Origin: Bacteroidota bacterium
Lineage (GTDB): Bacteria; Bacteroidota; Bacteroidia; CAILMK01
Assembly: GCA_026391915.1 (NCBI GenBank)
Contig: JAPLCZ010000232.1
Location: 1-41,401 of the forward strand
Length of the DNA: 41,401 bases
Direction of reading: 5' to 3'
Made by a program: the position numbers and the translations under genes. Numbering within the stretch: the stretch's first letter is position 1; every line of letters starts with the position of its first letter. Of this stretch, positions 1,225-31,330 are shown in pieces. The notes below the pieces were generated by a model. The model worked only from the letters and a program-made list of their open reading frames with translations, was not told the origin of the DNA and ran no database searches.

Positions 1225-2130
1225 TTATTGACGTAGCTTTTTCAAAAGGTGTTCCAAAGAAACATCATCAGGGATTAAAACCTCACGGGGTTTACTGCCA
1301 AGGTTTTCGCCTACAATGCCGGCTTGTTCCAGTTGGTCCATCAGCCTGCCGGCGCGGTTATACCCTAAGTTCATGCGGCGTTGCAACATGGAAGTGGAGC
1401 CTTGCTGTGTGCGCACTACCATGCGGGCTGCATCATCAAACATGGCATCCATATCACCGCTATCAAAGTCAGCTCCTCCACCTTCTTCTCCCTCTTCAGG
1501 AATCAACTCTAAGCGGTAAGGCTCTGGGTAAGGCTGGTGTTTTATATGGTCAGTGATGCGGTCAATTTCATCCGTATCCAAAAATGGGCATTGCAAACTT
1601 ATAATGTCATTCCCTCTGGAGAAAAGCATATCTCCTCTACCAATTAGTTGGTCAGCGCCACCACCATCTAATATGGTTCTGCTATCCACTTTGGAGGAAA
1701 CTTTAAATGCAATACGTGCCGGGAAGTTGGCTTTAATAACCCCCGTAATAATATTTACGGATGGGCGCTGAGTTGCCACTATTAAATGGATACCTATTGC
1801 CCTAGCTAACTGCGCCAAACGGGCTATAGGCATCTCCACCTCTTTGCCTGCGGTCATCATCAAATCAGCAAGCTCATCTATCACTAATATTATATAGGGT
1901 ATGCGTTTATGGATGGTGGCATCCAACTGCCCGTGTTCAATTTTTTTGTTATATTCTTTGATATTGCGAACCTCAGCATCCTTGAGTTTGTCATAGCGTT
2001 CATCCATCTCAATACAAAGAGATTTAAGCACATTAACCACCAATTTAGTATCTGTGATAATGGCTTCTTGCCCATCCGGCAACTCAGGGAGGAAGTGTTT
2101 TTCTATATGTTTATAGAGGGATAGCTCCAC
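1225..2130 (-). CDS. ftsK: FtsK DNA translocase, C-terminal fragment (frameshifted)
   Basis: This 301-residue open frame holds the rest of the FtsK/SpoIIIE motor. It contains the Walker B region ILVIDELADLMM, the segment THLIVATQRPSVNIITGVIKANFPARIAF, and a C-terminal winged-helix gamma domain (about 240-290, DDAARMVVRTQQGSTSMLQRR) that in other FtsKs recognises KOPS/SRS polarity sequences. Homologous reading in this frame really begins upstream of the GTG at 2130, at GAC 2142 (DPKKVELSLYKHIE), which sits inside the preceding fragment's frame. About eleven codons expected before this DPKK are missing, giving a net deletion of roughly 31 nt. So this is not an independent gene but the distal half of a broken ftsK. 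It is unlikely to function alone because it lacks the Walker A loop and membrane domain. Confidence 0.9.
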   Translation of the reverse strand: MELSLYKHIEKHFLPELPDGQEAIITDTKLVVNVLKSLCIEMDERYDKLKDAEVRNIKEYNKKIEHGQLDATIHKRIPYIILVIDELADLMMTAGKEVEMPIARLAQLARAIGIHLIVATQRPSVNIITGVIKANFPARIAFKVSSKVDSRTILDGGGADQLIGRGDMLFSRGNDIISLQCPFLDTDEIDRITDHIKHQPYPEPYRLELIPEEGEEGGGADFDSGDMDAMFDDAARMVVRTQQGSTSMLQRRMNLGYNRAGRLMDQLEQAGIVGENLGSKPREVLIPDDVSLEHLLKKLRQ

Positions 2131-3584
2131 CTTTTTTGGGTCTTCTTATATAATATAGATGCAATGATGGTATTGATACCAACTGATTTCCCCTGGCCTG
2201 TTGCACCTGCCATTAATAAGTGGGGCATGCCTGCAAGGTCTGCCACATACACCTCATTGCTGATGGTTTTGCCCAACACAATAGGCAAATCAAAATTATT
2301 ATTGATGAATTGCTTGGAGGAGATAGCATCTTTAAAAGACACTATTTCTGGGTGTTGATTAGGGACTTCAATCCCTATAGTTCCTTTGCCTGGCATAGGC
2401 GCAATAATGCGGATACCCAATGCGGCAAGACTAAGGGCAATATCATCTTCAAGGCTTTTGATTTTAGAAATGCGAACTCCTGCAGAGGGGATGATTTCAT
2501 ACAGCGTAACGGTTGGGCCTATAGTAGCCTCAATTTTATCAATGCTGATTTTATAATTGAGGAGGGTTTCCACAATCATGTTTTTGCGTTCTTCCAACTC
2601 TGCTTTATCCACCACTGCTTTGCCGCTGTTGTGGTCTTTTAATAAATCAACGGTTGGGTATTTATACCATGAGCCAGAAGAAGGCATTTCCTCATTTAGG
2701 TTTTTAGGAGAGCTGCTTTCAGTTTTGGCAGCTGGCTTTATTTCAAGGCTTATATCTGTAGGTAGGTGCGCATTTTTAAGTCTTGATTTCCTATCCAATG
2801 GTGGGGTTGGAGTATCATCCTTTTTAGATAAAACAAAATCATCGGGGTTGGGCTCATCTTCTATTACATCAGCATCCTTCATTACTTCATTAGGGATAAA
2901 TCCATCATAGTTGCTACCCAATTCTGCCCCATCTGATTCTTCTTTTTTATTGAAGATATTAGCAAGATTAAAACTGATATCATATCTGATGACTAAGAAA
3001 CTCATGAGTACTGCAATCAGCACAATGGCGACCCCAATATTACCTACCAACATCCTTATCCAACTAAATAATTCAAAGCCTAAAACCCCACCTAAATAAT
3101 CCAATTCAGAAAAGGATTGGGTGACATATGCCATAGTAACGCTGAGGAAAACCACTGAGAAAATCAACAAAACAAAAACCTTATTGCTGGCAATAAGGGA
3201 TGTGCCAAACATGAGTTTATATCCTAATAAAAAGATAAGAGGCAGCAATAAAAAACTCGCCACACCAAACCATGAATAGATAAACCAATGCCCGCTTATA
3301 GCACCCAGCAAGCCCATAAAATTTTCTATTTCCTTATGCTTACCACTAAAAAACTGCCCGAACTCCAATGCCGTAACCACACTCTTATCCACCTGCCACG
3401 TAAAAAGGTAGGATACAAAAGAAAGAAACAGAAAAAACGAAAGCAGAATAAGAACAATCCCCCCAATTTTGCGTTCTCTTTGCCAATCCCGCACAGGGGT
3501 TTCCACTTTTTTCTTGCGCCCCTTTTTAGGCTTTTCCTCTTGGAAATCTTCTCTAATCGTATTTTTAAGGGTATTCTCTGCCAT
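2103..3584 (-). CDS. ftsK: FtsK DNA translocase, N-terminal fragment (frameshifted)
   Basis: FtsK couples divisome assembly to chromosome dimer resolution. This 493-residue part carries a basic N-terminus, about four membrane helices (residues about 35-210), an acidic/proline linker (220-320), and the start of the RecA-like motor with the FtsK alpha domain and Walker A loop GATGQGKSVG (about residues 465-474). Soon after ASILYKK the frame changes (plus-strand about 2142-2146). It continues for about a dozen unrelated residues to a stop at 2103. The distal motor lies in another frame (1225-2130), so the full gene should be about 1225-3584. A TAnnTTTG element at 3598-3605 lies just upstream of the ATG. 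If real, only the membrane domain would be functional. An assembly or sequencing deletion is equally plausible. Confidence 0.92.
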   Translation of the reverse strand: MAENTLKNTIREDFQEEKPKKGRKKKVETPVRDWQRERKIGGIVLILLSFFLFLSFVSYLFTWQVDKSVVTALEFGQFFSGKHKEIENFMGLLGAISGHWFIYSWFGVASFLLLPLIFLLGYKLMFGTSLIASNKVFVLLIFSVVFLSVTMAYVTQSFSELDYLGGVLGFELFSWIRMLVGNIGVAIVLIAVLMSFLVIRYDISFNLANIFNKKEESDGAELGSNYDGFIPNEVMKDADVIEDEPNPDDFVLSKKDDTPTPPLDRKSRLKNAHLPTDISLEIKPAAKTESSSPKNLNEEMPSSGSWYKYPTVDLLKDHNSGKAVVDKAELEERKNMIVETLLNYKISIDKIEATIGPTVTLYEIIPSAGVRISKIKSLEDDIALSLAALGIRIIAPMPGKGTIGIEVPNQHPEIVSFKDAISSKQFINNNFDLPIVLGKTISNEVYVADLAGMPHLLMAGATGQGKSVGINTIIASILYKKTQKRWSYPSINI

Positions 3585-3646: not shown

Positions 3647-4093
3647 CTAATAGGTTGACGCACCTGTAACATCTCCATATTGCCTTTGTAATTCTATAAT
3701 AGCCTCCCTGCACTTTTTTTCTAACGTAATTACTTTTGGCAAAACATCATCCATGGTAGCACCTCCTCTAAGCCTTACTTCAATATCATTAGCAAGACTC
3801 TTAGTCTCACCTGATACCCAATTTTCAATGTTTGATCTTATCTTATAAACACTATTGGCAAGATCTTCTGTATTTTTCTCATTGATTAATTTTAGAATGT
3901 CATCTAATTGTGTGGGTGTATAAGTCAACATTATCTCAACCAATTCTTTCATCATGCTTGGGTCATCATTGGTCAAATTCCTCAGTGTAGATAGGTCTAT
4001 TATATTTGTCAATGTTTGTATTTTTGATGAGTGATTCAGTAACTTGCACCTCTTTGGAAAAAGAGATATTATTTGTTCGCAAATTACTATCAA
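3647..4093 (-). CDS. Degenerate Hpt-like protein
   Basis: A 148-residue, mainly alpha-helical protein. From about residue 33 it reads like a histidine phosphotransfer (Hpt) domain: DLSTLRNLTNDDPSMMKELV followed by PTQLDDILKLINEKN and a helix where Hpt proteins carry the phospho-accepting motif (A)HKLK. Here that motif is VYKIR, so tyrosine (about residue 83) replaces the histidine and phosphotransfer is not expected. It is divergent from the response regulator starting at 4116, with only 22 bp between, which suggests functional linkage, perhaps as a receiver-domain partner. The start is uncertain: the frame opens with TTG at 4093 and a second TTG at 4012 (giving 121 residues) fits the Hpt domain boundary better. 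I see no in-frame ATG before the domain. The Hpt assignment is from pattern only. Confidence 0.6.
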   Translation of the reverse strand: MIVICEQIISLFPKRCKLLNHSSKIQTLTNIIDLSTLRNLTNDDPSMMKELVEIMLTYTPTQLDDILKLINEKNTEDLANSVYKIRSNIENWVSGETKSLANDIEVRLRGGATMDDVLPKVITLEKKCREAIIELQRQYGDVTGASTY

Positions 4094-4115
4094 TCAGAGG
4101 AAATATTAAATACTA

Positions 4116-4499
4116 ATGGGAATGAAAATTTTAGTTGCTGAAGATGAACCTCTTTTACGTAGGTTGATTCAAATCCGTCTTGAAAAGGATGGTTATGAAA
4201 TCTTAACAGCCAAAAATGGACATGAAGCAATTGAAGTAATTACTAAAACTGATGACATTGATTTAATAGTAACGGATATTTTAATGCCATTTATGACAGG
4301 TTTAGAGCTTGTTAGTATTCTTAAAAGCATGAATAAAACAATTCCTATCATTGTTCTTTCATCCATGAGTGTTGAAAAGACAGTTTTAGAGGCTTTTAGA
4401 TTAGGAGCTAATGATTTTATCACAAAGCCATTCAGCCCTAATGAGTTAGCGGCTAGAGTTAAGCGCGTGCTTGAGGAAGTGGGTAACACTACCAAATAA
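4116..4499 (+). CDS. Single-domain response regulator (CheY-like receiver)
   Basis: A 127-residue stand-alone REC domain. The acidic pocket E9-D10 (LVAEDE), phospho-acceptor D54 (IVTDILMP), switch Ser82 (VLSSM) and conserved Lys104 (ITKPF) are all present, so the receiver should be phosphorylatable. There is no output domain, so it must act by protein-protein contact. It is divergent from an Hpt-like gene lacking its histidine and lies upstream, in the same direction, of a putative exopolysaccharide operon. This is consistent with control of polysaccharide synthesis or secretion. The partner kinase is not in the window. A second ATG at 4122 is an alternative start. Confidence 0.92.
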   Translation: MGMKILVAEDEPLLRRLIQIRLEKDGYEILTAKNGHEAIEVITKTDDIDLIVTDILMPFMTGLELVSILKSMNKTIPIIVLSSMSVEKTVLEAFRLGANDFITKPFSPNELAARVKRVLEEVGNTTK

Positions 4500-4582
4500 T
4501 AATACACTCTGCTTTCATGCAGTTTTTAGATTGTTTTATCATAACTTCTTACACTTTCGTAAAAACACTATTTATTTATTCT

Positions 4583-4611
4583 TTTGCTCTACTTTCATGA
4601 GGGTAAGTTTG
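4583..4611 (+). promoter_or_regulatory. Candidate promoter of the polysaccharide operon
   Basis: TTTG at 4583-4586 and TAAGTTTG at 4604-4611 match the Bacteroidota -33 (TTTG) and -7 (TAnnTTTG) elements with a 17-bp spacer, the short end of the accepted range. Transcription would start near 4618, leaving a leader of about 75 nt before the ATG at 4692. Confidence 0.5.
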
Positions 4612-4631
4612 CATAAGGTTTTTTAAATCTG

Positions 4632-4658
4632 TCTATAAGCCTGTTTTATAGATTTTTT
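4632..4658 (+). terminator. AT-rich terminator or attenuator-like hairpin
   Basis: TCTATAA (4632-4638) pairs perfectly with TTATAGA (4646-4652) across a 7-nt loop and is followed by six T residues. The stem is AT-only apart from one G-C pair, so it is weak. If the promoter at 4583-4611 is used, this hairpin lies in the leader of the 4692 gene and could attenuate it. Otherwise it may terminate the response-regulator transcript. Confidence 0.4.
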
Positions 4659-4691
4659 GAAATGCTAGTTTTTGAAACCAATAGAAGCTGA

Positions 4692-6527
4692 ATGAGGAAT
4701 AACACTACACTAAAAGGTAAATTCTATTTACTTTACAAACAGATTGAATGTCGGAAAGGATTTTTGAAAGGAGTTTTCATAGCTGCTTTTATACTATCTC
4801 TTCTTTTTAGTTTGCTACATCCAAGTATTGTAAAAGGAGGAGTTGCTTTAAAAAAGCATAAGGTAGCCCGTAAAGAAACACTATATAGTATTTCTACAAA
4901 ATATCACGTTAGTGTATCTGAAATACTTAAAGCTAACAATTTAAATTTATCTTCAAAAATTGATACGGGGCTACTTCTGATAATACCTTCAACGCAGCCT
5001 TCAAATGTTGACAGGGGTAATACAATAATTTATCATACAGTTGCAAAAAAGGAAACATTATTTAAGATTGCCACTAAATATGGTACTACCCCCAATAATA
5101 TAATTCAATTAAATAAACTTACAGGAAATAATTTGGAGGTGGGGGTAACATTAATTGTTGGATATAAGAATAATCAAATAACTCAACCCTTAAATGAAGC
5201 TGTAGTTCTTCCTCAGAAAGATAATACCGGAGATGGCAATTCTGTTAGCAACACTGCCACAGAAGTTGCTGATAAAATTGTTGGATTAGGAGAACCTGAT
5301 AAGGGTAAGAATAGGCAAGTAGAAGAGAAAGACCCTAACGGAGGCAGAACTCATGAGGTAAAAACAAGAGCTCCTCAAGATGACCCTAGAAATAAAAAGG
5401 GAGAATACAGAAACCTTGGAGACTATTTTAAATACTCTTCGCTTCCATTGTTGATTCTAAGAATTGGAGCTATTCTTTTCATTTTAGCTATTGTAATAAT
5501 TGCTGTTGTAATTCTAACCATGAGAACTAATAAAACTATTGATGATAATAAAAAACAGCAATTTGATAAGTTTTTTCAGGATTTAGTAGCTCAAATTATT
5601 TTTACTGATAAAGAAAATGAAACGGATGAATTTGAGGAGGAATTTACACACGAACAAGCAAAATTAATAGAAGAATTTGAACGCGAATTTTTAACTATTC
5701 CGTTTTTTCGACAAGTTGCTATAGACCGGTTAATTGAGGTTTATAAAAGCCTTAGCGGCCTTGCTGCCAAGAGGGTTGAAAACCTCTATTATGAATTTGA
5801 TTTGGTAAACGACACACTTCGTAAAATTAAAAGTGCTAGGTGGGAAGAGAAAGTTCGTGGAATTCGTGAGGTTGAACAAATGCATCTTCGTCAGGCATAT
5901 AAACAGGTATATGGATTAATTAACCATCCTAATGAAATGCTCAGATATGAAGCACAATTAGCGGTTTTAAGTCTTCGTAGGGCACGTCACCTCTCATTTC
6001 TTGAGAAACTTGACACACCACTTTCTGCATGGCAGCATATGAATTTAGTTGCAAAGCTTAAAAAGATTCCTAATTATGATGTCAGGAATTTAAATAAACT
6101 TTTAGACAGCCCAAACCCAAGCGTAAATGTTTTTGCTATCAGAATGATTCAAGATTTTAATATGGTGAAAAATGTACCTGAAGTGCAACGTATGCTTGAC
6201 CACCCAAATGAAGATGTAAAAGTGGCAGCGATTAAAACTTTAAGCTACTTACACAATGATAAGAGTATCCTTAAACTGCTATCTGCCTACCCGGGTGAAA
6301 GCGAAAGAGTACAATCAGAGATTTTAAAATATATTGGAGTAACGGGTTCTGGTGAGCATGGTGGAATGTTGAGGCAGCTAATAGGCAGCAGTAATACAAA
6401 TATCTCACACGCCGCCCAAGAAGCTTTAGCATTAATGAGCTATCAACCTCTTGATGAACTTAACCTTTTGCTTGATTCGAAAACTACAGAATCAACAAAA
6501 GCGTTACCTGAGTCAGGAAATATATAA
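4692..6527 (+). CDS. Membrane protein with LysM pair and cytoplasmic HEAT repeats
   Basis: A 611-residue protein with unusual architecture. After a short basic N-terminus there is a membrane helix (about 24-47) and two LysM domains (about 55-98 and 114-156, e.g. HKVARKETLYSISTKYHVSV). A low-complexity linker follows, then a second membrane helix (about 251-276, LILRIGAILFILAIVIIAVV) and a long helical region with HEAT-like repeats (about 390-600). With two membrane passes the LysM part would lie in the periplasm, where it could bind peptidoglycan or glycan, and the HEAT part in the cytoplasm as a scaffold. It heads a run of four same-strand genes (gaps 30, 9 and 19 bp) with a glycosyltransferase and an outer-membrane barrel. 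It is therefore a candidate linker between the cell wall, the synthase and the upstream response regulator. That role is inference. Confidence 0.8.
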   Translation: MRNNTTLKGKFYLLYKQIECRKGFLKGVFIAAFILSLLFSLLHPSIVKGGVALKKHKVARKETLYSISTKYHVSVSEILKANNLNLSSKIDTGLLLIIPSTQPSNVDRGNTIIYHTVAKKETLFKIATKYGTTPNNIIQLNKLTGNNLEVGVTLIVGYKNNQITQPLNEAVVLPQKDNTGDGNSVSNTATEVADKIVGLGEPDKGKNRQVEEKDPNGGRTHEVKTRAPQDDPRNKKGEYRNLGDYFKYSSLPLLILRIGAILFILAIVIIAVVILTMRTNKTIDDNKKQQFDKFFQDLVAQIIFTDKENETDEFEEEFTHEQAKLIEEFEREFLTIPFFRQVAIDRLIEVYKSLSGLAAKRVENLYYEFDLVNDTLRKIKSARWEEKVRGIREVEQMHLRQAYKQVYGLINHPNEMLRYEAQLAVLSLRRARHLSFLEKLDTPLSAWQHMNLVAKLKKIPNYDVRNLNKLLDSPNPSVNVFAIRMIQDFNMVKNVPEVQRMLDHPNEDVKVAAIKTLSYLHNDKSILKLLSAYPGESERVQSEILKYIGVTGSGEHGGMLRQLIGSSNTNISHAAQEALALMSYQPLDELNLLLDSKTTESTKALPESGNI

Positions 6528-6557
6528 GTAGAAATAAAATACTAAAACAAACCAAAA

Positions 6558-8042
6558 GTGGATTTAATACTTGAGTTTATAATTCAGCTAATAATAAACA
6601 GTATCCTTGTTTATTCAATAGCTATTTGTGTAGCATATGCTATTTTGGCCATCATATCAGCCATCAGTATTTCGGACTATTTGCGAAGGAATAAATACAT
6701 TGATTATTCTTCAATTCTTTCCTCATCATTAGCACCTTCAATTTCTATTGTAGCACCTGCGTATAATGAGGGTATGACAATTATACAAAATGTTCGTTCA
6801 CTTTTGAACCTGCAGTATGCTATTTATGAAGTTATAATTATTAATGATGGCAGCAAGGATGATACCTTGGAGAAATTGATGGAGGAATATGATTTGGTTC
6901 CAGTTGAAATACTTCCTGAATACGATTTACCTACTAAACAAGTGTATGGCGTTTATCAATCTAGGAATGCAGCTTTTGGAAAGTTAAAAGTTATTGATAA
7001 GCAAAATGGTGGAAAGGCAGATGCATTGAATGTTGGGTTAAATTACGCTACTCATAAAATAGTTCTATGTGCTGATGTTGATTGTATTATAGATGATTTA
7101 GCACTTTTGAAAGTTGTTAAACCTTTTATGGAAGATAGGAAACGATTAATAGCTTCTGGCGCCGTGGTTTCAATTGCTAATTCTTGTAAAGTTGAAAAAG
7201 GGAGATTGATGGAAGTTCATGTTCCCGAGAATTTTTTAGCGCGTGTACAAGTTCTTGAATATTTACGTGCATTTTTAATGGGAAGGATGGCATGGAGTAA
7301 ATTAGATGGATTATTACTTGTATCCGGAGCATTCGGATTATTTGATAAAGAGATAGCAAGAAACGCTGGTGGGTACGATACTGAAACGGTTGGGGAAGAT
7401 ATGGAGTTGGTAGTGAGAATGAGAAAATATATGATTGAAAATGGACTTGAGTATTCAGTGATTTATGTTCCTGACCCTCTTTGTTGGACAGAGGCCCCGT
7501 CATCCTATAAAGTATTGGGAAATCAACGTAGCAGGTGGACTAGAGGAACAATAGAAACATTGCTAAAACACAGGAAAATTTTCTTTAATCCTCAATTTGG
7601 GTTTTTAGGAATGGTTAGTTATCCTTTTTGGTTTTTCTTTGAATGGTTGGCTCCCTGGGTTGAAATATTTGGACTATTGTTTTTCATAGTTTTGGCACTT
7701 TTAGGATTTGCATATTGGTCATTCTTCTTTTCACTTTTGGCAATCGTATTTAGTTATGCTACTACGCTAACTTTATTATCAATCCTATTTGAAGAAATAT
7801 CATTTAACCAATATAAAGGCAAACGCGATATTGTTAAGCTTGCACTTACAGCACTTGTTGAGTCGTTTGTTTATCACCCGCTTACCGTATACTGGTCAAT
7901 TCGTGGAAATTATCAATTCTTTTCAGGGATGAAACAATGGGGAGAAATGATAAGAACCGGATTCGCAGAACAAAATACAAAAAGCCAGGAGACAGAGATT
8001 CACACTGTACCTGATGTGAACCTTCATCCATTAAACGGATAA
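6558..8042 (+). CDS. Processive family-2 glycosyltransferase (exopolysaccharide synthase)
   Basis: A 494-residue membrane glycosyltransferase of the cellulose/poly-GlcNAc synthase type. It has an N-terminal membrane segment (about 8-40) and a GT-A domain with the UDP-sugar motif IINDGS (D97), KQNGGKADALN (148-157) and the metal-binding ADVD (172-175). The catalytic-base region is GED (E280-D281), and the QRSRW motif (323-327) marks processive enzymes. The C-terminal part has several membrane helices (about 345-425). It probably polymerises a beta-linked polysaccharide at the inner membrane and moves it across. Sequence alone does not tell GlcNAc from glucose polymers. The start is GTG at 6558, 30 bp after the LysM/HEAT gene. 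The next gene encodes a TPR/beta-barrel protein suited to export. No PgaD- or BcsB-like partner is seen. Confidence 0.9.
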   Translation: MDLILEFIIQLIINSILVYSIAICVAYAILAIISAISISDYLRRNKYIDYSSILSSSLAPSISIVAPAYNEGMTIIQNVRSLLNLQYAIYEVIIINDGSKDDTLEKLMEEYDLVPVEILPEYDLPTKQVYGVYQSRNAAFGKLKVIDKQNGGKADALNVGLNYATHKIVLCADVDCIIDDLALLKVVKPFMEDRKRLIASGAVVSIANSCKVEKGRLMEVHVPENFLARVQVLEYLRAFLMGRMAWSKLDGLLLVSGAFGLFDKEIARNAGGYDTETVGEDMELVVRMRKYMIENGLEYSVIYVPDPLCWTEAPSSYKVLGNQRSRWTRGTIETLLKHRKIFFNPQFGFLGMVSYPFWFFFEWLAPWVEIFGLLFFIVLALLGFAYWSFFFSLLAIVFSYATTLTLLSILFEEISFNQYKGKRDIVKLALTALVESFVYHPLTVYWSIRGNYQFFSGMKQWGEMIRTGFAEQNTKSQETEIHTVPDVNLHPLNG

Positions 8043-8051
8043 AAATTGAAG

Positions 8052-9371
8052 ATGAAAACTGCTTATAAATTTAATGTCCTTGCTCTTATATTATTGTTCA
8101 GTGTATTGGGCAGCTATAAAGTTCAAGCGCAGGCTGATTCACTATTTACCAAGGCAAGAGATTATGCTTTTGTTGACAGTATGAAGAACAGAAACAAATC
8201 AAAAGAACTTTGTAAAAAAGCGTTGAAAATTTCACCCAAATATGCAGATGTTTCTGTGTTTTTGGCAAGGCTTTATTCTTGGGATGGAGATTATGATTCT
8301 GCAAGGCCGATACTTAAAGACGTAATTGAAAGAGACTCTTCTAATGAAGATGCTATCAATGCAATGTTTGATGTGGAATATTGGTCTGACCATCCTATTG
8401 GCGCAGAAGATTATGCCAATAAAGGCCTAAATATCAACCCCAAATCTAGAGAATTTCACATCAAAAAAGCAAGGGCTATTGCAGATCAAAAAAGGCTTAA
8501 GGATGCAATAACAGTCATTGATACTTTTCTTGTAAAAAACCCAGGGGATAAAGCAGCTGTAGATTTAAGAGAGACGCTACTTGAAAGAATGCGAGTTCAT
8601 AAAGCCGGTATCTCATATGATATTGATATTTTCAGTAATACCTTTACAAGCCCTTGGCACTCTTTATCCTTATATTATAGTAAACCTACCCCCAAATTAG
8701 GTACTGTGGTAACTCGTTTAAATATGTTTCAGAGATTAAATGAACCAAACTCAGTTCGTTCAGGACAACTTGAAGTGGACGCTTATCCATCGCTATCACC
8801 AAAAGCCTATATGTATTTAAATGCGGGTGTGTCATTTGATAAATGGATGTTTGCTAATAGTAATACAAGCAAGCCTTTTCCATATTACCTACCTTTATAC
8901 AGATTTGGAGCTTCTTACTACCGCAGTTTACCCCGTAGTTTTGAAGGTGAGCTAGGTTTCAGATTTTTAGGATTTGAAACTCCAGTAATCATTTTTACTG
9001 GGTCACTTGGTTGGTATTACAAAAATTTCTGGTTTTCAGCACGACCATTCATTACGCCCAACAGCCAATTCCCAAGTGTGTTTTCAAGATCAATCAATCT
9101 TTTAGGTAGGTGGTATTACACAGGAGAAGGGTTGGATTATTTTACAATATACTTAAGTACTGGATTATCTCCAGATGATCATATACCCGATATTGGTACC
9201 ATTAAGGGTACTCCACCGTTACATTCCTATAAAATTAGACTAGACTTTCAGAAAAAAGTTGGCAAAAGATATTTAATTGGGGGTAAGGTGGCTGATGAGT
9301 ATTTAGAATTACCGTTTAAGAAAATTAGATACGATTATACCTTTGGGGCTTACATCGATTATCTGTTTTAA
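8052..9371 (+). CDS. YaiO-like outer-membrane protein with TPR domain
   Basis: About 439 residues. A signal peptide (about 1-27, ending VQAQA) is followed by TPR-like helical pairs (about 40-180, e.g. ALKISPKYADVSVFLARLYS). A C-terminal beta-barrel half is rich in aromatic alternating strands and ends in phenylalanine (YIDYLF). This is the plan of YaiO-family proteins and of PgaA/BcsC exporters: periplasmic TPRs recruit the polymer and the barrel conducts it across the outer membrane. I chose ATG 8052 over the in-frame TTG at 8046 because it leaves a cleaner signal peptide start (MKTAYK). It begins 9 bp after the glycosyltransferase, so translation is probably coupled. The barrel here is smaller than PgaA, so a sensory or accessory role is also possible. 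Confidence 0.82.
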   Translation: MKTAYKFNVLALILLFSVLGSYKVQAQADSLFTKARDYAFVDSMKNRNKSKELCKKALKISPKYADVSVFLARLYSWDGDYDSARPILKDVIERDSSNEDAINAMFDVEYWSDHPIGAEDYANKGLNINPKSREFHIKKARAIADQKRLKDAITVIDTFLVKNPGDKAAVDLRETLLERMRVHKAGISYDIDIFSNTFTSPWHSLSLYYSKPTPKLGTVVTRLNMFQRLNEPNSVRSGQLEVDAYPSLSPKAYMYLNAGVSFDKWMFANSNTSKPFPYYLPLYRFGASYYRSLPRSFEGELGFRFLGFETPVIIFTGSLGWYYKNFWFSARPFITPNSQFPSVFSRSINLLGRWYYTGEGLDYFTIYLSTGLSPDDHIPDIGTIKGTPPLHSYKIRLDFQKKVGKRYLIGGKVADEYLELPFKKIRYDYTFGAYIDYLF

Positions 9372-9390
9372 TTGAAGAAAAAAATCAACG

Positions 9391-10566
9391 ATGAGAAGCA
9401 AATTTTTTAGAGTACTTTTTTATGTAATAATACTTACCCCATTATGGATGTGGTTAATATGGATGATAACACCCAAAAAGCCATTAAGGGTTTGTTTTGT
9501 AGATAAAACAGTTTTATCTACATTATGCCGTGAACACTCTTCATTTGGATGGGTGCTAAAATACAAAAGATTTTGTAGGCCTAATCACAATTGGTATAAC
9601 AAAAAGACAGACTATTACGGGTTTTTTCCAAAGGAGGATAGAAAGTTTTTGCTGCAAGATATTGATCATATGCAACAGGAACAAATTGACAAAGCATCTG
9701 ATAAGTATGATTTATTTTATTATACTGACACCTACGGTATTTATAGTAATGAGTGGTATGGGGATACTTTAATCAATGAACGGTCACGCCTAGTATATGG
9801 TGGGATGTCAAGCCATGATTTGAGTTTATTGAAAAGAGCAAAGGCAAGGCACAAACTAATTATCGCAGAGTTTAACACTATTGCAACTCCAACAAAAGCT
9901 GGGATTCGACATGAATTCGAAGACATGTTTGGCGTTAAATGGTCAGGGTGGGTAGGTAAATACTTTGATGTTCTAGACACTAATATTAATTACGATTTGC
10001 CATTATGGCTGTACAGAAACTATAAAAAACAACACAATGGTCAATGGCCTTTCAAGAGATCAGGAATTGCATTTGTAAATATTGATGACCACGTCGAAGT
10101 GTTGGAAAATATTAAAGATTTAAAAGTAGAAGTGCCGTATATTGTTACAGCCAAACGTGCTAACCGTGATAGATTCACAATACCTAGAAGGATGAAATAC
10201 CCTTACTGGTTTGACATCATGTACACTTCGCATAGGAACAATGTAATAAGTACCTATCTTATTGAACCTACCAAAAGGGGTGATTCAATTCTTAAACACT
10301 GGGGGATACTTAAAAAATTCCCTGCTGTTATTGAACATATAGATACCAATTATAGATTCTATTATTTTTCAGGGGATTTTTGTGACAACCCAATCCGTGA
10401 CCGCTTAAACAGCTTTAAAGGTATATGGTATTTTAAACCACTTTTTTATAATAAAAAGGAAATTGGAGAAACTGAAAGTTTTTTCTGGAAATTTTACATG
10501 CCCATGGTAACTCAAATCCTTGATGAATACTATCCAATTGTGAATTCCAAAAGGCATGAAAAATAG
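9391..10566 (+). CDS. Unrecognised membrane-anchored protein of polysaccharide operon
   Basis: A 391-residue protein I do not recognise. One N-terminal membrane helix (about 7-27, no cleavage motif) anchors a large domain probably facing the periplasm. Conserved-looking patches include DLFYYTDTYGIYSNEW, LIIAEFNTIATPTKAG and VKWSGWVGKYFD. The AEFN...P segment and the two-lobed alternation vaguely recall type-1 glutamine-amidotransferase-like or carbohydrate-active folds seen in other polysaccharide operons (PelA-like modules), but no catalytic triad can be assigned by eye. It is the last of four tightly spaced genes, 19 bp after the YaiO-like gene and convergent with the next gene. By position it might modify, trim or guide the polymer, the slot filled by PgaB in the Pga system. 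Function is unproven. Confidence 0.6.
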   Translation: MRSKFFRVLFYVIILTPLWMWLIWMITPKKPLRVCFVDKTVLSTLCREHSSFGWVLKYKRFCRPNHNWYNKKTDYYGFFPKEDRKFLLQDIDHMQQEQIDKASDKYDLFYYTDTYGIYSNEWYGDTLINERSRLVYGGMSSHDLSLLKRAKARHKLIIAEFNTIATPTKAGIRHEFEDMFGVKWSGWVGKYFDVLDTNINYDLPLWLYRNYKKQHNGQWPFKRSGIAFVNIDDHVEVLENIKDLKVEVPYIVTAKRANRDRFTIPRRMKYPYWFDIMYTSHRNNVISTYLIEPTKRGDSILKHWGILKKFPAVIEHIDTNYRFYYFSGDFCDNPIRDRLNSFKGIWYFKPLFYNKKEIGETESFFWKFYMPMVTQILDEYYPIVNSKRHEK

Positions 10567-10586: not shown

Positions 10587-11243
10587 CTAATTTTGGTTAA
10601 ATACAAACTGGATAATATTAGCGCCAAACTTTAAGGCTTCTTGGCGCTTTTCTTCGGGGTCTTTATGTACCTCAAAATCCTCCCATCCATCACCAATATC
10701 TGTTTGGTAATTGTAAAGGCAAATCAACCTGCCATTATAAACCAACCCAAAAAGCTGAGCAGGTTTTTTATCATGCTCATGTATTTTAGGGATGCCATTA
10801 GGGAAGTTATATTTTTGGTGATATACAGGATGATTATATGGAATTTCTGCAAGAGTTAACTCCGGAAAAACTTTCTTTAGTTCATTACGGATAAACATAT
10901 CCATACCATAGCTATCATTAATGTTGAGGAAGCCACCACCCAATAAATAAGAACGAAGATTCGCTGCCTCAGCAGGGGAGAAAGTTACATTGCCGTGCCC
11001 TGTAAGATGTATTAGTGGGTAGTTGAAAATCTCTTGACTACCAACTTCTACCACATCCTCCTGAGGAGAAATATTAGTATTTAGATTTTTATTACAGTAG
11101 GCAATAAGATTGTTGAGGGAGGTAGGGCTGCAATACCAATCTCCACCACCATTGTATTTAAGGCGTGCTATTTTTATAGTAGGTTGGCTTGAGGAGAAGG
11201 ATAATAAAACCGATGAAAGAAGAATCAAAAACAGCTTTTTCAT
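10587..11243 (-). CDS. DUF4159 domain protein
   Basis: A 218-residue exported protein with signal peptide 1-20 (MKKLFLILLSSVLLSFSSSQ) and a single DUF4159 domain. Signature stretches are ARLKYNGGGDWYCSPTSLNN near the N-terminus, HLTGHGNVTFSPAEAANLR and GGGFLNINDSYGMDMFIRNE. The fold is expected to be class-I glutamine-amidotransferase-like, but the family has no established function. It is convergent with the polysaccharide operon (20-bp gap) and lies 36 bp downstream of prs on the same strand. A near-consensus -7 box (CACTTTTG) lies just upstream, so it may have its own promoter. Confidence 0.88.
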   Translation of the reverse strand: MKKLFLILLSSVLLSFSSSQPTIKIARLKYNGGGDWYCSPTSLNNLIAYCNKNLNTNISPQEDVVEVGSQEIFNYPLIHLTGHGNVTFSPAEAANLRSYLLGGGFLNINDSYGMDMFIRNELKKVFPELTLAEIPYNHPVYHQKYNFPNGIPKIHEHDKKPAQLFGLVYNGRLICLYNYQTDIGDGWEDFEVHKDPEEKRQEALKFGANIIQFVFNQN

Positions 11244-12866: not shown

Positions 12867-15800
12867 ATGAAAGTCAACATTTACGCAAAACAAACGGCTG
12901 GTATTCTAAGGAATATTACCCTTGCACTTGTCGCATTATTAGCTGTAAATACTGCTCAGGCTTCCCTAAGCGGTACTTATACTATTAACCCAAGTGCTTC
13001 GGCATCCTCTACCAACTACAAAGATTTTACTAGTGCAGTAGGAGACCTAATCAGCGGAACACGCGCTGATGGAGGAACTGCCAACGGCTCCGGCGTGTCG
13101 GGTGCCGTTACATTTAACGTTGCCAAAGGCACGTACAAAGAAGTTGTAGATATTACCGCCATCACAGGTGTATCATCAACCAAAACCATTACTTTTCAAT
13201 CGGCATCTGGAACTAATACAGATGTTATTCTGATTGATAATAGTGCCACAACTGGTACTGTACACACTGTTCATCTTGATGGTGCAGAGTACATCAACTT
13301 TAAAAACATGACTATTGCTAATACAAGCAATGGAGCTCACGTAATTGAAGTTGATAATAGCTCTAACATGAATAGCTTTACAAACAACTTATTGTTGATG
13401 CCTACAGCTACCGCAAATACAAATTACCCATCGGTTATTTACTCACCAAATGGTTCTTTTGATACTTCTAATACTTTTACAAATAATTATTGTAAGGGTG
13501 GTTATTATTGTGTTTTCTGGATTGGGGCAAGTGGAACTCCTGAAACTTATAATGTTTTTGAAGGTAACACTTTTGACTCAGCCTATTACTTAGGTGTTTT
13601 ATTAGATTATCAAAACTGGATGACCTTTAATAATAACACTATTAAAAACATTCAATATCTTTATGGTTATGGTATGTATATTTATTACGATGGCCCTGGT
13701 TGTAAAATAACTAATAATAAATTGAATCTTGAGAACTACATGGGGATGTATTTTTATCGCAGTGCTGGTGACGCTACTAATCCAATTCTTTGTGCTAATA
13801 ATTTCATCTCTAATAGTAGCACTTACTCATACTATGGTATGTATAACTATGGAACAGATTACATAAACTATTTCCACAACACAATTTATATGGGGGGGAC
13901 CAATACCTACTCATATGCATTTATGATGTATGGTACCGGTTCTAATATAGGTGATAGCGTATATAATAATAATATCTACAATAATCAACCTACCAATGGT
14001 TACGCAGTTTATTTATATAATGCGGGTGTTGATAGCATGGATTACAATAATTTATACGTTAATTCTTCTACAACAAATCTTGGATATTTCAATGGCTCTA
14101 ACTGTGCCACTTTTTCTGATTGGCAGCTAACTTCAAGTTGGGATCCTAATGGTCAAAATGTTGACCCAGGATTTAAATCAAGTACTAATCTGCATGTTAA
14201 AGCTATACTATTAAACGGAACTGCAAGACCAAGAAGCTTGGCTGGGGTTTCTGTTTTAAAAGATATTGATGGCGATACAAGAGATTCAAAAAACCCTGAT
14301 ATAGGTGCTGATGAATTCTTCCCTGCGCCAAATGATGCCGGTGTCGCTTCTATTGATAGCCCTGGTGTTGGCATTTGTGGAGGTAAGCAAGATGTTTATG
14401 TTACTGTTAGTAATAATGGAACAAATGCATTAACCAGCTTTACTGTAAACTGGAAAGTTAATGGAACTTCACAGACTGCATATTCTTATTCCAATGCTAC
14501 CGGTGTAGCTGTTGGAGGTAGCATACAAATTTTACTTGGTAGTTATACTTTTAGCAAAACATCTATTGATAACATTTTTGCAACCACAACAAAACCTAAT
14601 GGAACTACAGATGCTAACCCTATTGATGACTCTATGAGCCGTTCTGTAAGGAGTGGAATGCAGGGTACATTTACAATAGACCCTTCCAAATCAGCAAGTG
14701 CTACTAACTACCAAACATTTAACACAGCTCTTGCTGATGTAACTACAAGAGGTGTTTGTGGCGCTACTACATTTAATGTAGCAAATGGCACCTATACAGA
14801 ACAATTAAATGTTACTCCTATTGGTGGTGCTTCTGCTACTAATATGGTTACTTTCCAAGGTACTGATAGCACCAAAGCAATCCTTACCTGGCCTTTTGGT
14901 AGTGCAGCTAAAAACTATACAGTATCCTTTAATGGTAGTAGCTGGGTTAAGTTTAATAAATTAACAATTAGCCGTACTGGTTTTAGCACTACAACAGGTG
15001 CTACAAATGGTATTGCAGTAGAAGTTAAAAATTCCTCTAATGCAAATTGGGTAACTAATAGTATCATCTTAACTAACGTACCAACTTCAAGTAATTATTA
15101 CTATACTTATTATGCTATATATTCTCCACAAGGGAGCATTGATTCTGGTAATGTATTTAAAAATAATATCATCCGTGGTGGTGGTTATTATGGCATTTAT
15201 TGGATGGGTGGTAGTACAACTACCCTTGAACCTAATAACGTATTTGACCATAACCTTATAGACAGCGCTTACTATTATGGTATGCTATTATACTATCAAG
15301 ATGGTCTTAAATTTACAAACAATACTGTTCATGGAGGTATGTATACATATTCTATGGGTATGTATTGCTACTATGGTTATAGCCATATTATTACAGGAAA
15401 TAAAATATCAACACCTGGTTACTATGGCATGTATCTTTACAATTGCAATGGCGTATCTGGTGGCGATACAATGGTGGTAGCCAATAATTTCCTTACTGTA
15501 GAAGGTACCTATGCCTTTGGTTATGGAATTTATATGGGCTATAATGCTGATGTAATTCGCTTTGCTTATAACAACGTATTGATGCTAACTCCTGCAACTA
15601 CTAACTCAGCGTTATACATTGGAGGCTCTGCAGGTACGGTTGATATATTGAATAATTGCCTTTATAACTATGGTGGTGGATATGCAATTTATTATAGTAG
15701 CAGTTCTTTATTTGCTACAACTAACCATAACAATTTATATACTTCAGGAAGTAATTTAGGTTACCTTTCTGGTGCTCAGGCATTACTTTCTGATTGGCAA

Positions 15801-18800
15801 ACAGCAACTAGTCAAGATGCAAATAGTATTTCAGAAGACCCAGGTTATAAGAAAATGAAATATCCTTATGACCTCCATATTACCAATGTAAATTTAGATG
15901 AGTTAGGTACACCTGTTTATGGCATTACTACAGATATTGATGGGGATAAAAGAGATGCTACTTTACCTGATATTGGGGCTGATGAAATTAAACCTGCTGA
16001 TTATGATGCTGGTATTTCTTTAATTGATAGTCCAGCTGTTGGTTTCTGTGGTGGTACAAAAGATATTTGGGTAACGCTACAGAATTTCGGTAAAAAGACT
16101 TTGACCTCTGCTACTATCAGCTGGAGTGTTAACGGTACTTCTAAAACTTCGGTTTCATGGACTGGTACTTTAACTAAAGGTAGTAAAACTCTTGTTAAAC
16201 TTGGTTCATTATCCTTTACCGGAACTAACCAACACATTTTTGCGAGAACAGATAATCCTAACAGTGTTAAAGATGTAGTGCCAGTTAATGACTCAATAAG
16301 CCGTGATGCAAATACTGCTTTAAATGGCACTTATACAATAGGTGGTACTTCTCCTGATTATACTACTTTTTCTTCTGCAGTTATTGCTTTAAACACTAGA
16401 GGTGTTTGTGGTGCTGTGGTATTTAATGCACGCAATGGGGCCTATACTGAGCAATTATTATTGGGTTTCATTGGTGGTGCTAGTTTGGCTAATACAGTTA
16501 CTTTCCAAAGCCAAAGCGGGGATAGCTCTAAAGTAAATGTTGATTGGCCATCTACTAATAGCTCTAGTTACGCCCTTAGTTTAACAGGTTCAAGTTTCGT
16601 AACTTTCAAGAAATTAACATTTATGAGGTCAGGCACTAGCACAAGTGGTGGTTCTGTTGTTGAGTTTAAAGGTGCAAATAATTGTACAATTACTAATTGC
16701 CGCCTTATTGGAGTTAAAGATAATGCGTATAATCAATCAAACACCGTTATTAACTCAACGAGTTCAAATGATGAATATAATACCATTGCCAACAATAAAA
16801 TATGGGGAGGTTCCTTTAGTGTTTATTGGCAAGGTCCTTCCACGGCTAATATGGAATCTGGTAACACCTTCAGTGGTAACACGTATGATAGCTCTGGTTA
16901 TTATACAAATTATATGGCATATCAAGATTCATTTAAGTTCGTTGGAAATACAATTCAAAATAAATTCTATAGTGGTGGTGCAGCTCTTTATTACCAATAT
17001 ATTTATGGTCCAAGTTGGATTTCCAAAAATAAGTTCATTTTAAATAACACGACTTCTTATGGTCTTTATGGATTCTATTTCCAAGGCAATTCTACAGATA
17101 GTAACTTTATCAGTAATAACATGATTAGCTGTAATAGCTATTACGGCATGCTGCTTTATTACTCCGATTATACCAATTTATATTATAACAGCGTTGTAAA
17201 TAATAGTGCTAACTATACTGTACTTATGTACCACTATACCACAGTAAATAGTTTATTGTGTTATAATAATTCTTTCGTTTCTTTAGGTGGTGGTTATGCC
17301 ATTTATACATACCAAAACAACCCAACTTGGGGTGATTACAATAATCTTTACACTACAGGTAGTAATGTTGGTTCTTATAAAGGTACTGCTTGCCCTACTT
17401 TATCTGACTGGCAGTCCGCTACTGGCTTTGATGCTAATAGTATTACTTTAGATCCTAAACATATTAGTGCTACTAATTTACATTGCAAATCAACTCCACT
17501 AAATGGAAGAGGTGTAGTGTTAAATACTATTAAAGATGATATTGATGGAGAAAGCCGCGGCACAATTGCAACTGATATTGGAGCTGATGAATTCACTCCT
17601 CCAAATGACGATATGTCAGCACTTGCTTTAGAAACTCCAGTTTGCCCAACTTGTGGTGATTCATTTAGTTTAATTAGTGTGAGAATGAGAAACTGGGGTA
17701 TAAATAGCCAAACAAGTGTACCTGTTGGTTTCTCTGTAAAGAGCCCAACTGGTGTTACTACTACCGGCAGTGGAACCTTCTCAGGTACTGTTAATGGTGG
17801 ACAAGATACTAGCTTTACATTCACAACTAAAGTAAATACTTATGCTGGTGGTGTTTTCTCTTTCAAATTATGGACTGCACTAAAAGGAGATAATGATATT
17901 ACCAATGATACATTCACCACTACTGGTGAGTTCATTCCTCATTCTCCAAAACCAGTTGTTACCAACGCACTTACTTGCGGTGCTGGTTTAGCTACCATGA
18001 TTGCTAAAGGCCCTGCTGGTGATTCTGTTTATTGGTTTACAACAGCTAAAGGAACTTCTTATTTCCATGTTGGTGATACTTTAAAACAATCCATCAGCAG
18101 CAATGTTACTTATTGGGTAGAGTCTAAACCATATCTTGATTCAGCCGGTTTGGTTGATAACACTACCTTGGGTACTTCTTATGCGTTAGGCAATTACAAT
18201 TACGATTTAATTTTTGATGCCTTGCAGGATATGGTGATTGATTCACTTACTGTGTATCCACAAAACAATGGTATGTTGCAAATTAATATTAATGATGCGT
18301 CAGGTAAATCAATTGCTATGCGTCAGTTTAATATCACTACATCAACCAATCCTTATGACCCAATTACGGTTCCGGTTAAGCTAAGAATACCAAAGGGCAA
18401 AAATTATCACATAAACCCAGTGGGTAGTAGTGTTGGTAATATGTATTACAACTACTATGGTTCAGGCTATCCTTATTCTTATAAGAACTTAAACAAAAAC
18501 AATAAGATTGTTAGCATAACAGGTAACAGTTTAAATACTGCTATCTATTGGTTCTTCTTCTACAATTGGAGAGTTTCAACCAACCTTGCTTGCGTGAGTG
18601 AAAGAGTTCCTATCACTGCTACCGTGGGTTCTGGTCCTAAACCTACTATTAAGTTTACAGCTACTGCTTCTTGCGTAACAAGCAATGCCGCATTTGTAGA
18701 TGCAAGTACAATAAGTAGCGGAGCTATTGCTTCATGGAAATATGATTTTGGAGATGGTACTTCGTATGTTTCTACAACTTCTGGTACAACTACTCACAAA

Positions 18801-19889
18801 TATGCAAACCCAGGGACTTATAAAGTTACCTTAACTGTTATCTCACAAAAAGCTTGTGGTGATACATTGAGTCACTTCATTACTGTTCATCCAACACCTA
18901 AAGCTAAATTTAATGTTAGCCCATCAACGGTTTGCGAAGGCGGTCAAATTAACTTTGTTGATAGCAGCAAATACAGCGGTGGTACATTAAGTTATGGATG
19001 GGATTTCGGTGATAAAACAACTGATACCAAACAAAATCCAAGTCACGTTTATACTTCCTCTGGAAGCTTCAATGTAAGACTTGTAGCAAACAGTGGTACA
19101 TGTACTGATACTGCATACAGTGTTGTAAATGTTAACCCTGTGCCTAAAGTTGCATTTGGTGTTACTAACCCATGTGCGCAAAGGTTAACTCAGTACATTG
19201 ATTCTTCAACCATTGCTTCTGGTAGTATTAAATCTTACTCTTGGAGTTTAGGGGTTACTGGTATCACTGATACTGTTAAGAACCCTACTTATAAATACTC
19301 TAAAGCAGGTACCTATTCAGTTACTCTTTCTGCAACTTCGGATAAAGGATGTACCAAGTCTATCACCAAAGGTATTAACATTGATGCACCAATTCTTTCA
19401 AGCATTGGCGCTACAATTAAGAATGCTAATACTTATGACTTTGCATCTAACAATACTTCTGATTTCTATTTCTGGGATTTTGGAGATGGTAGCAGCACTG
19501 CATCTAGCAAAGCTGTAACACACTCTTTCTCTAACGGAACTTATACTGTAACTCTTGTTACTATCACTTCTGGTGGTTGCCCTGATACTTCTAAGAAAAC
19601 CTTCACTATCACTTCTATTGATAATGCAGCTTCTTCTGATGTAAATATCAGCGTATATCCAAATCCATTTAAAGAAAGCACCAATATTAATTATAGCCTT
19701 GGCAAAAAATCAAATGTACAAGTAGTAGTTTTTGATGTAATGGGCAGAACTGTTGCAACCCTTGCTGATGGTGTACAACCATCTGGTAATTACAATTTAA
19801 TGTTTAATAATAACACTGCCGGCATCTATATGCTAAAGGTAACTGTGGATGGCAAAACCATCAATAAGCAGATTATTGCTGTGAAGTAA
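12867..19889 (+). CDS. Giant beta-helix/PKD surface protein with T9SS sorting domain
   Basis: A 2340-residue secreted protein. A signal peptide (about 1-32, ending AQAS) precedes three long modules starting near residues 33, 599 and 1152. Each begins with G-T-[YF]-T-I and a (T)F..A...L stretch, continues as a right-handed parallel beta-helix rich in N, Y, G, S and T, and contains a recurring (S)AYYxGxLLxYQ motif. It then reaches an IGADE motif and an Ig-like domain of the type VNWKVNGTSQTAYS; in the third module this domain differs (PTCGDSFSLISVRMRNWG). A further Ig-like region follows, then about four PKD domains (about 1925-2250, e.g. YDFGDGTSYV, WDFGDKTTD). A C-terminal type-A T9SS sorting domain (about 2260-2340) has the typical YPNPF, VFDVMGR and AGIYMLKV blocks. 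It should cross the outer membrane through T9SS and be cell-attached or released. Glycan binding or adhesion is plausible, enzymatic activity unproven. A strong terminator follows. Confidence 0.93.
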   Translation: MKVNIYAKQTAGILRNITLALVALLAVNTAQASLSGTYTINPSASASSTNYKDFTSAVGDLISGTRADGGTANGSGVSGAVTFNVAKGTYKEVVDITAITGVSSTKTITFQSASGTNTDVILIDNSATTGTVHTVHLDGAEYINFKNMTIANTSNGAHVIEVDNSSNMNSFTNNLLLMPTATANTNYPSVIYSPNGSFDTSNTFTNNYCKGGYYCVFWIGASGTPETYNVFEGNTFDSAYYLGVLLDYQNWMTFNNNTIKNIQYLYGYGMYIYYDGPGCKITNNKLNLENYMGMYFYRSAGDATNPILCANNFISNSSTYSYYGMYNYGTDYINYFHNTIYMGGTNTYSYAFMMYGTGSNIGDSVYNNNIYNNQPTNGYAVYLYNAGVDSMDYNNLYVNSSTTNLGYFNGSNCATFSDWQLTSSWDPNGQNVDPGFKSSTNLHVKAILLNGTARPRSLAGVSVLKDIDGDTRDSKNPDIGADEFFPAPNDAGVASIDSPGVGICGGKQDVYVTVSNNGTNALTSFTVNWKVNGTSQTAYSYSNATGVAVGGSIQILLGSYTFSKTSIDNIFATTTKPNGTTDANPIDDSMSRSVRSGMQGTFTIDPSKSASATNYQTFNTALADVTTRGVCGATTFNVANGTYTEQLNVTPIGGASATNMVTFQGTDSTKAILTWPFGSAAKNYTVSFNGSSWVKFNKLTISRTGFSTTTGATNGIAVEVKNSSNANWVTNSIILTNVPTSSNYYYTYYAIYSPQGSIDSGNVFKNNIIRGGGYYGIYWMGGSTTTLEPNNVFDHNLIDSAYYYGMLLYYQDGLKFTNNTVHGGMYTYSMGMYCYYGYSHIITGNKISTPGYYGMYLYNCNGVSGGDTMVVANNFLTVEGTYAFGYGIYMGYNADVIRFAYNNVLMLTPATTNSALYIGGSAGTVDILNNCLYNYGGGYAIYYSSSSLFATTNHNNLYTSGSNLGYLSGAQALLSDWQTATSQDANSISEDPGYKKMKYPYDLHITNVNLDELGTPVYGITTDIDGDKRDATLPDIGADEIKPADYDAGISLIDSPAVGFCGGTKDIWVTLQNFGKKTLTSATISWSVNGTSKTSVSWTGTLTKGSKTLVKLGSLSFTGTNQHIFARTDNPNSVKDVVPVNDSISRDANTALNGTYTIGGTSPDYTTFSSAVIALNTRGVCGAVVFNARNGAYTEQLLLGFIGGASLANTVTFQSQSGDSSKVNVDWPSTNSSSYALSLTGSSFVTFKKLTFMRSGTSTSGGSVVEFKGANNCTITNCRLIGVKDNAYNQSNTVINSTSSNDEYNTIANNKIWGGSFSVYWQGPSTANMESGNTFSGNTYDSSGYYTNYMAYQDSFKFVGNTIQNKFYSGGAALYYQYIYGPSWISKNKFILNNTTSYGLYGFYFQGNSTDSNFISNNMISCNSYYGMLLYYSDYTNLYYNSVVNNSANYTVLMYHYTTVNSLLCYNNSFVSLGGGYAIYTYQNNPTWGDYNNLYTTGSNVGSYKGTACPTLSDWQSATGFDANSITLDPKHISATNLHCKSTPLNGRGVVLNTIKDDIDGESRGTIATDIGADEFTPPNDDMSALALETPVCPTCGDSFSLISVRMRNWGINSQTSVPVGFSVKSPTGVTTTGSGTFSGTVNGGQDTSFTFTTKVNTYAGGVFSFKLWTALKGDNDITNDTFTTTGEFIPHSPKPVVTNALTCGAGLATMIAKGPAGDSVYWFTTAKGTSYFHVGDTLKQSISSNVTYWVESKPYLDSAGLVDNTTLGTSYALGNYNYDLIFDALQDMVIDSLTVYPQNNGMLQININDASGKSIAMRQFNITTSTNPYDPITVPVKLRIPKGKNYHINPVGSSVGNMYYNYYGSGYPYSYKNLNKNNKIVSITGNSLNTAIYWFFFYNWRVSTNLACVSERVPITATVGSGPKPTIKFTATASCVTSNAAFVDASTISSGAIASWKYDFGDGTSYVSTTSGTTTHKYANPGTYKVTLTVISQKACGDTLSHFITVHPTPKAKFNVSPSTVCEGGQINFVDSSKYSGGTLSYGWDFGDKTTDTKQNPSHVYTSSGSFNVRLVANSGTCTDTAYSVVNVNPVPKVAFGVTNPCAQRLTQYIDSSTIASGSIKSYSWSLGVTGITDTVKNPTYKYSKAGTYSVTLSATSDKGCTKSITKGINIDAPILSSIGATIKNANTYDFASNNTSDFYFWDFGDGSSTASSKAVTHSFSNGTYTVTLVTITSGGCPDTSKKTFTITSIDNAASSDVNISVYPNPFKESTNINYSLGKKSNVQVVVFDVMGRTVATLADGVQPSGNYNLMFNNNTAGIYMLKVTVDGKTINKQIIAVK

Positions 19890-31276: not shown

Positions 31277-31300
31277 GTGATTGGTTTTAGAAATTCTAAT

Positions 31301-31330
31301 CAAAGGTAATAGTTTCTGTTTTGAAACAAA
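31301..31330 (-). promoter_or_regulatory. Promoter of the second giant gene
   Basis: Minus-strand TTTG (31330-31327), an 18-bp spacer and TACCTTTG (31308-31301) match both Bacteroidota elements. The predicted start is near 31294, about 18 nt upstream of ATG 31276, which excludes the upstream TTG as a start codon. Confidence 0.7.

Follow-up and report, generated by a model that had tools for sequence, protein, structure and literature searches.

The well-studied synthase-dependent polysaccharides of Gram-negative bacteria, for example cellulose, are switched by cyclic di-GMP (c-di-GMP), which binds the synthase complex (PMC8461298, PMC11470070). Here we describe a locus in the 41,401-nt contig JAPLCZ010000232.1 of a Bacteroidota bacterium (assembly GCA_026391915.1), hereafter the window. 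Its five co-directional genes, between positions 4116 and 10566, encode a stand-alone receiver (rec), a membrane protein with HEAT repeats (heat), a family 2 glycosyltransferase (GT2), an outer-membrane barrel of the YaiO family, and an anchored protein of an unnamed family, p391. The gaps between heat, gt2, yaiO, and p391 are only 30, 3, and 19 bp, respectively, making the arrangement operon-like, and 192 bp separate rec from heat. We consider it probable (roughly 0.7) that this operon specifies a machine for synthase-dependent exopolysaccharide secretion, one that is peculiar to Bacteroidota and their relatives and is controlled by a phosphorelay instead of c-di-GMP.

The DGS, DVD, GED, and QxxRW-type motifs are present in the window GT2 and widespread in the GT2 family of the module; judged by them, the protein is a processive-type membrane synthase. 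Its best NCBIfam model is PgaC, with 125 bits against a cut-off of 422 bits, and the CelA model yields 32 bits against 699. The window YaiO scores above the curated cut-offs of its own family (114 versus 32 bits for TIGR04390 and 149 versus 24 bits for PF19413), and the PgaA model yields 22 bits against 367. In an AlphaFold2 (AF2) model of YaiO (pLDDT 88.8), helices forming tetratricopeptide repeats (TPRs) are followed by 14 main strands, and the best match of this model in a Foldseek search of PDB is E. coli BcsC (4.8e-13), the 14-stranded porin OmpG being matched as well. We propose from this model that YaiO is an outer-membrane beta-barrel exporter with periplasmic TPRs.

The type II cellulose system Bcs of E. 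coli (BcsA, BcsB, BcsC, and BcsG) likewise combines a membrane GT2 with a TPR and outer-membrane barrel protein. Moreover, in most relatives of the locus an alkaline-phosphatase-fold membrane transferase, encoded beside the synthase or fused to it, resembles BcsG, which transfers phosphoethanolamine, has five membrane helices, and is recruited by BcsA (PMC11470070). However, neither PilZ nor BcsB (PF03170) was detected in the genome of the window, and HEAT, the receiver, and p391 lack a Bcs counterpart. The Pga/Ica systems share with the module the top named model of the GT2 (PgaC/IcaA) and an exporter with TPRs and a barrel, but have another accessory set, and PgaD (PF13994) and the PgaB glycosidase (PF14883) were not detected in the window genome, with a positive E. 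coli control. These searches, as well as that for GGDEF, covered the genome of the window alone, a Bacteroidia assembly of 3.29 Mb that is 95.6% complete and was treated as a metagenome-assembled genome (MAG). The original prediction, made from the window sequence, had noted a resemblance of the synthase and barrel to Pga and the absence of PgaB, PgaD, and Bcs partners. The locus does resemble Pga without belonging to it, and the absence extends to the whole genome for BcsB, PgaD, and the glycosidase domain of PgaB.

A divergent Pga (poly-N-acetylglucosamine) or Bcs (cellulose) system that lost its recognizable partners would account for PgaC being the top named synthase model and for an exporter layout like those of BcsC and PgaA. 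We regard this as very unlikely, since the scores of PgaC, PgaA, and CelA lie far under their cut-offs, the expected partners were undetected, and in their place HEAT, p391, and LtaS-like proteins are conserved class-wide. In function the module would work like Bcs and Pga, with a synthase, modification in the periplasm, and export by a TPR barrel, and it is a member of neither.

A YaiO-family barrel also accompanies a GT2 and a putative polymer-modifying enzyme in the uncharacterized yaiS-yaiP-yaiX-yaiO cluster of E. coli K-12, the one genome inspected in this respect, where yaiO lies near the GT2 gene yaiP and the putative deacetylase gene yaiS. The pairing of barrel and GT2 is thus not confined to the present module, although the K-12 cluster is annotated without HEAT, receiver, p391, or LtaS-like gene, and its yaiX is broken by IS2. 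The NfrB/NfrA pair of E. coli, likened here by its description, does not belong to the classic families either and also joins an inner-membrane glycosyltransferase to an outer-membrane protein (PMC8669469). NfrB binds c-di-GMP via an MshEN domain (PMC8669469), whereas the present module has receiver and histidine phosphotransfer (Hpt) genes beside the synthase, and no GGDEF was found in the window genome. In the open-licence PubMed Central literature, mostly at the level of titles and abstracts, the name YaiO occurs mainly among E. coli PCR markers and in unrelated uses, and no paper on YaiO with a HEAT repeat, on YaiO and YaiP in connection with polysaccharide, or on the gene set of the module was found, which is weak evidence of absence.

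Conservation of the module

In a class-wide sample of 395 Bacteroidia genomes, p391 was found in 25. A scan of a genome-contig collection with p391 matched 299 stretches, 80 of which were kept; these are mostly from Bacteroidota, with the addition of Ignavibacteria/Melioribacter, and the p391-bearing genera include Pedobacter, Mucilaginibacter, Daejeonella, Gillisia, Zunongwangia, Spirosoma, and Chitinophaga. Co-occurrence was counted in 61 long loci, that is, those with at least 8 kb on either side of p391, a partner being accepted if it was at most nine open reading frames (ORFs) away. YaiO is encoded in 60 of them, GT2 in 54, HEAT in 53, the receiver in 46, and all five parts in 45. Among all 104 p391 loci, whatever their length, p391 directly follows yaiO in 84 and gt2 directly follows heat in 73. 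Near-duplicate pairs (for instance, L059/L147, L133/L134, and L082/L087) slightly reduce the number of independent loci.

Strong matches to the HEAT core, defined as at least 90 bits and tallied by hand over the same 395 genomes, occur in 53 of them, namely 24 of the 25 genomes with p391 and 29 of the 370 without it (Fisher's test, 1e-22). The sole p391 genome lacking a strong HEAT match (G241) carries only remnants of p391. In all 20 p391-less HEAT loci inspected, both GT2 and YaiO are encoded and gt2 stands directly after heat, and a receiver is found in 17. Because these loci keep HEAT, GT2, and YaiO, we consider the three proteins, usually together with the receiver, to be the core of the module, and p391 to be a frequent extra subunit tied to YaiO.

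The module is widespread across Bacteroidota and apparently undescribed, and it is more than an accident of a single genome. The original prediction had read the genes as one locus for polysaccharide synthesis and export linked to signalling and had proposed a neighborhood survey; in this survey the five genes co-occur across Bacteroidota, the neighborhood being neither limited to one genome nor split up in relatives, which supports that reading.

Receiver, HEAT protein, and proposed control of the synthase

No output domain was found in a Pfam scan of the window receiver. The rec and heat genes are immediate neighbors on one strand, with rec first, in 42 of the 104 p391 loci and in 11 of the 20 p391-less ones, in many families and with varied gene orders. 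This recurrence speaks against the explanation that the receiver and Hpt are an unrelated regulator merely adjoining the polysaccharide operon, which we find unlikely, even though receivers are common genes, 15 of the 61 long p391 loci lack one, and the Hpt of the window has no His.

The Hpt assignment in the window is weaker than the others, as the ORF was not matched by the Pfam Hpt model and is similar to the Hpt end of BarA. Aligned by eye, its VYKIRSNI stretch stands opposite AHKFLSNA of a canonical Hpt in a related locus (L011), so that the phosphorylatable His is replaced by Tyr. The missing histidine, already pointed out in the original prediction, is therefore a feature of the window, but a local one: Hpt ORFs adjoining the loci of relatives retain it, and its loss was seen in the window alone. 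The window copy may be a decoy or may have decayed in one lineage. Canonical Hpt matches occur at other sites of the window genome, and hybrid kinases and Hpts adjoin many loci of relatives.

Neither GGDEF nor PilZ domains were detected in the window genome, the controls being positive. Given the lack of this c-di-GMP signal, switching is probably by protein phosphorylation, and, as far as can be judged from the sequences, the likeliest form of control would be direct phospho-control of the synthase via the HEAT protein. Since the synthase operon has a built-in receiver and Hpt while the window genome shows no GGDEF or PilZ, the way in which such bacteria switch matrix production becomes testable in culturable genera. 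One p391 locus (L059) has, between its receiver and p391 genes, an ORF (7122-8243, plus strand) for a membrane protein of 373 aa that has no Pfam match and contains a phosphatase-like HCxxGxxR motif (HCYLGVDR).

In the window HEAT protein, a membrane segment at the N terminus is followed by two LysM domains, and another membrane segment separates these from the HEAT repeats. From its hydrophobic segments and their flanking charges, read off and not computed, we propose that LysM is periplasmic and the HEAT repeats are cytoplasmic. Most HEAT proteins of relatives are shorter, at 350-390 aa; they have a single membrane segment and lack LysM or SPOR-type domains. Among the proteins with clear extra length, to which the scan was limited, LysM exceeds the Pfam threshold solely in HEAT proteins from the family to which the window belongs (the window, L007, and L008) and is weak in L138; matches to peptidoglycan-binding domains in L204 and L138 fall below the Pfam cut-off. 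A C-terminal SPOR domain above the cut-off ties the synthase to peptidoglycan in two loci (GT2 of L055, 6120-8330, plus strand, and of L148, 11209-13374, minus strand). A SPOR-like appearance of L011 and L058 is unsupported by Pfam, and both were excluded from the counts.

With LysM and SPOR present on so few members, we dropped the idea of a peptidoglycan-sensing scaffold as the core of the system, which the original prediction had put forward; LysM on the HEAT protein is a lineage-specific decoration outside the core. The addition of two unrelated peptidoglycan-binding domains to two different subunits suggests that tethering to peptidoglycan is sometimes useful. The domain content thus suggests tethering at most, in some members, and gives no indication of sensing.

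Proposed periplasmic subunits and fate of the polymer

Pfam, NCBIfam, and PDB sequence searches with p391 gave no match, and no Pfam family was matched consistently by its relatives. Structure prediction of p391, also proposed originally, gave a confident AF2 model (pLDDT 90, pTM 0.90) with weak fold likeness only: the best Foldseek matches in PDB are GH42, the ThuA-like GATase1 fold, and Agd3, with E values of 1e-4 to 1e-3 and query TM scores (TMq) of 0.23-0.35, where the same fold corresponds to about 0.5 or more. By this model the fold is of a remote or elaborated alpha/beta type. We claim no enzyme class, as the three matches may reflect a shared alpha/beta core alone. An alignment of 24 p391 sequences has 26 invariant columns, including D38, K39, H49, E160, W184, W187, and D329, which would fit an active or binding site. 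The module provides a first functional context for this strongly conserved family, as well as for the poorly studied YaiO barrels.

In 53 of 63 long p391 loci there is a sixth component of about 680 aa, whose N-terminal half is hydrophobic and whose PF00884 domain has LtaS-type motifs. It is related to the phosphoglycerol transferases LtaS and OpgB, but scores far below their equivalog cut-offs and is encoded with GT2 or fused to it. The metal-site motif TGDH picks out 71 such proteins, every one of which keeps a GRTF motif that corresponds to the nucleophile region of LtaS. In about ten loci (L061, L062, L096, L103, L105, L106, L121, L130, L133, and L134) the domain is fused to the C terminus of GT2, yielding polypeptides of about 1,120-1,220 aa, and in one locus (L058) the enzyme is fused to HEAT. 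The fusions to GT2 suggest that the LtaS-like enzyme acts on the product of the synthase and that the polymer is phosphate-substituted; BcsG would be the closest working analogy. The original prediction could not see this component because the window lacks the gene.

The sister loci L007 and L008 have no LtaS-like gene either, and homologs are found elsewhere in the sister genomes. In two of these genomes of the window's family, LtaS-like genes for proteins of about 694 and 465 aa stand in tandem outside the module (L216, G001:C18, and L217, G002:C69). Other loci contain CotH-kinase genes (L051, L054, L056, and L057). Proteins with DUF4838 or GH16 are encoded beside p391-less modules (L205, 826-3051, minus strand; L210, 13168-15375, plus strand; L193, 8868-9653, plus strand) and are possible clues to the sugar of the polymer.

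GT2 and the LtaS-like enzyme might instead make an envelope-retained glycan, osmoregulated-glucan-like or teichoic-like, without YaiO as its exporter. The weak matches of the LtaS-like partner to OpgB and LtaS models would agree with this, as would the connection of some subunits to peptidoglycan by LysM and SPOR. Yet no partner is more constant than the YaiO barrel with its TPRs (present in 60 of 61 long p391 loci and in all 20 p391-less ones), whose nearest structure is BcsC, and the window is devoid of an LtaS-like enzyme, so that we assign this explanation little probability.

Considering gene content, conservation, fusions, predicted folds, and the lack of detectable GGDEF and PilZ, we infer the following scheme for an exopolysaccharide secretion machine. 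GT2 would polymerize a nucleotide sugar at the cytoplasmic face, its own membrane channel serving to extrude the chain, which the barrel of YaiO and its periplasmic TPRs would take across the outer membrane. Anchored beside YaiO, p391 may bind, trim, or modify the chain in the periplasm, and in most relatives the LtaS/OpgB-like enzyme may add a phospholipid-derived substituent, as BcsG does on cellulose. The likely switch is the stand-alone receiver, which would be supplied by hybrid kinases and Hpts and act by contact with the cytoplasmic HEAT domain, which in the window lineage the LysM domains could tether to peptidoglycan. The exopolysaccharide part of the earlier proposal of a polysaccharide secretion or gliding/biofilm machine is well supported by the conserved synthase-exporter locus; nothing found points to gliding.

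Several observations weigh against this interpretation. The source is fragmented, being a MAG in 325 contigs; the GT2 has no more than distant similarity to characterized synthases; the receiver is missing from about a quarter of the long p391 loci; and the window Hpt has Tyr at the position of the conserved His. The fold match of p391 is weak (TMq at most 0.35), and an enzymatic role assigned from it would be a guess. Finally, no LtaS-like enzyme is encoded in the window, and its genome has no close homolog (the best match, at 24% identity, was not counted as a partner). It is conceivable, and we suggest it only tentatively, that the loci of Bacteroidota and Ignavibacteria form a distinct exopolysaccharide secretion family, in which the synthase has as its direct post-translational switch a phosphorelay via the HEAT adaptor in place of c-di-GMP, and in which the polymer is finished by p391 together with a phospholipid-headgroup transferase fused to the synthase.

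Gene content of the window

All six ORFs named in the original prediction are present (Table 1), and its assignments of the receiver, LysM/HEAT protein, GT2, TPR/YaiO barrel, and unrecognized anchored protein agree with the Pfam and NCBIfam searches.

Table 1. Features of the locus in the window
Feature	Coordinates	Strand	Evidence and remarks
Hpt-like ORF, Tyr for phosphorylatable His	3647..4093	-	BarA C-terminal match 4e-5; TTG start uncertain
Stand-alone receiver (127 aa), proposed synthase switch	4116..4499	+	PF00072 1e-30
Membrane LysM/HEAT protein (611 aa)	4692..6527	+	PF01476 4e-22 (two LysM), HEAT_2 PF13646 6e-14
GT2 synthase (494 aa), processive-type motifs	6558..8042	+	PF00535/PF13641, about 1e-20
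TPR and YaiO outer-membrane barrel (441 aa), proposed exporter	8046..9371	+	PF19413 1.6e-43, TIGR04390; ATG at 8052 possibly true start
p391 (391 aa), anchored, proposed periplasmic, new conserved family	9391..10566	+	no Pfam, NCBIfam, or PDB sequence match

Convergent with p391, a DUF4159 protein (PF13709, 4e-68) is encoded at 10587-11243 on the minus strand, and in L011 a homolog is located some 6 kb upstream of p391. On the other side of the locus, ftsK (1225-3584, minus strand) is broken into the ORFs 2103-3584 and 1225-2130, which overlap and differ in frame. The gene is usually essential, and this apparent frameshift is likely an error of assembly or sequencing. Amid ordinary housekeeping genes, the ORFs at 12867-19889 (plus strand) and 26216-31303 (minus strand) encode two giant proteins that are predicted to be secreted and that combine beta-helix and PKD repeats with a sorting tail at the C terminus (PF18962).

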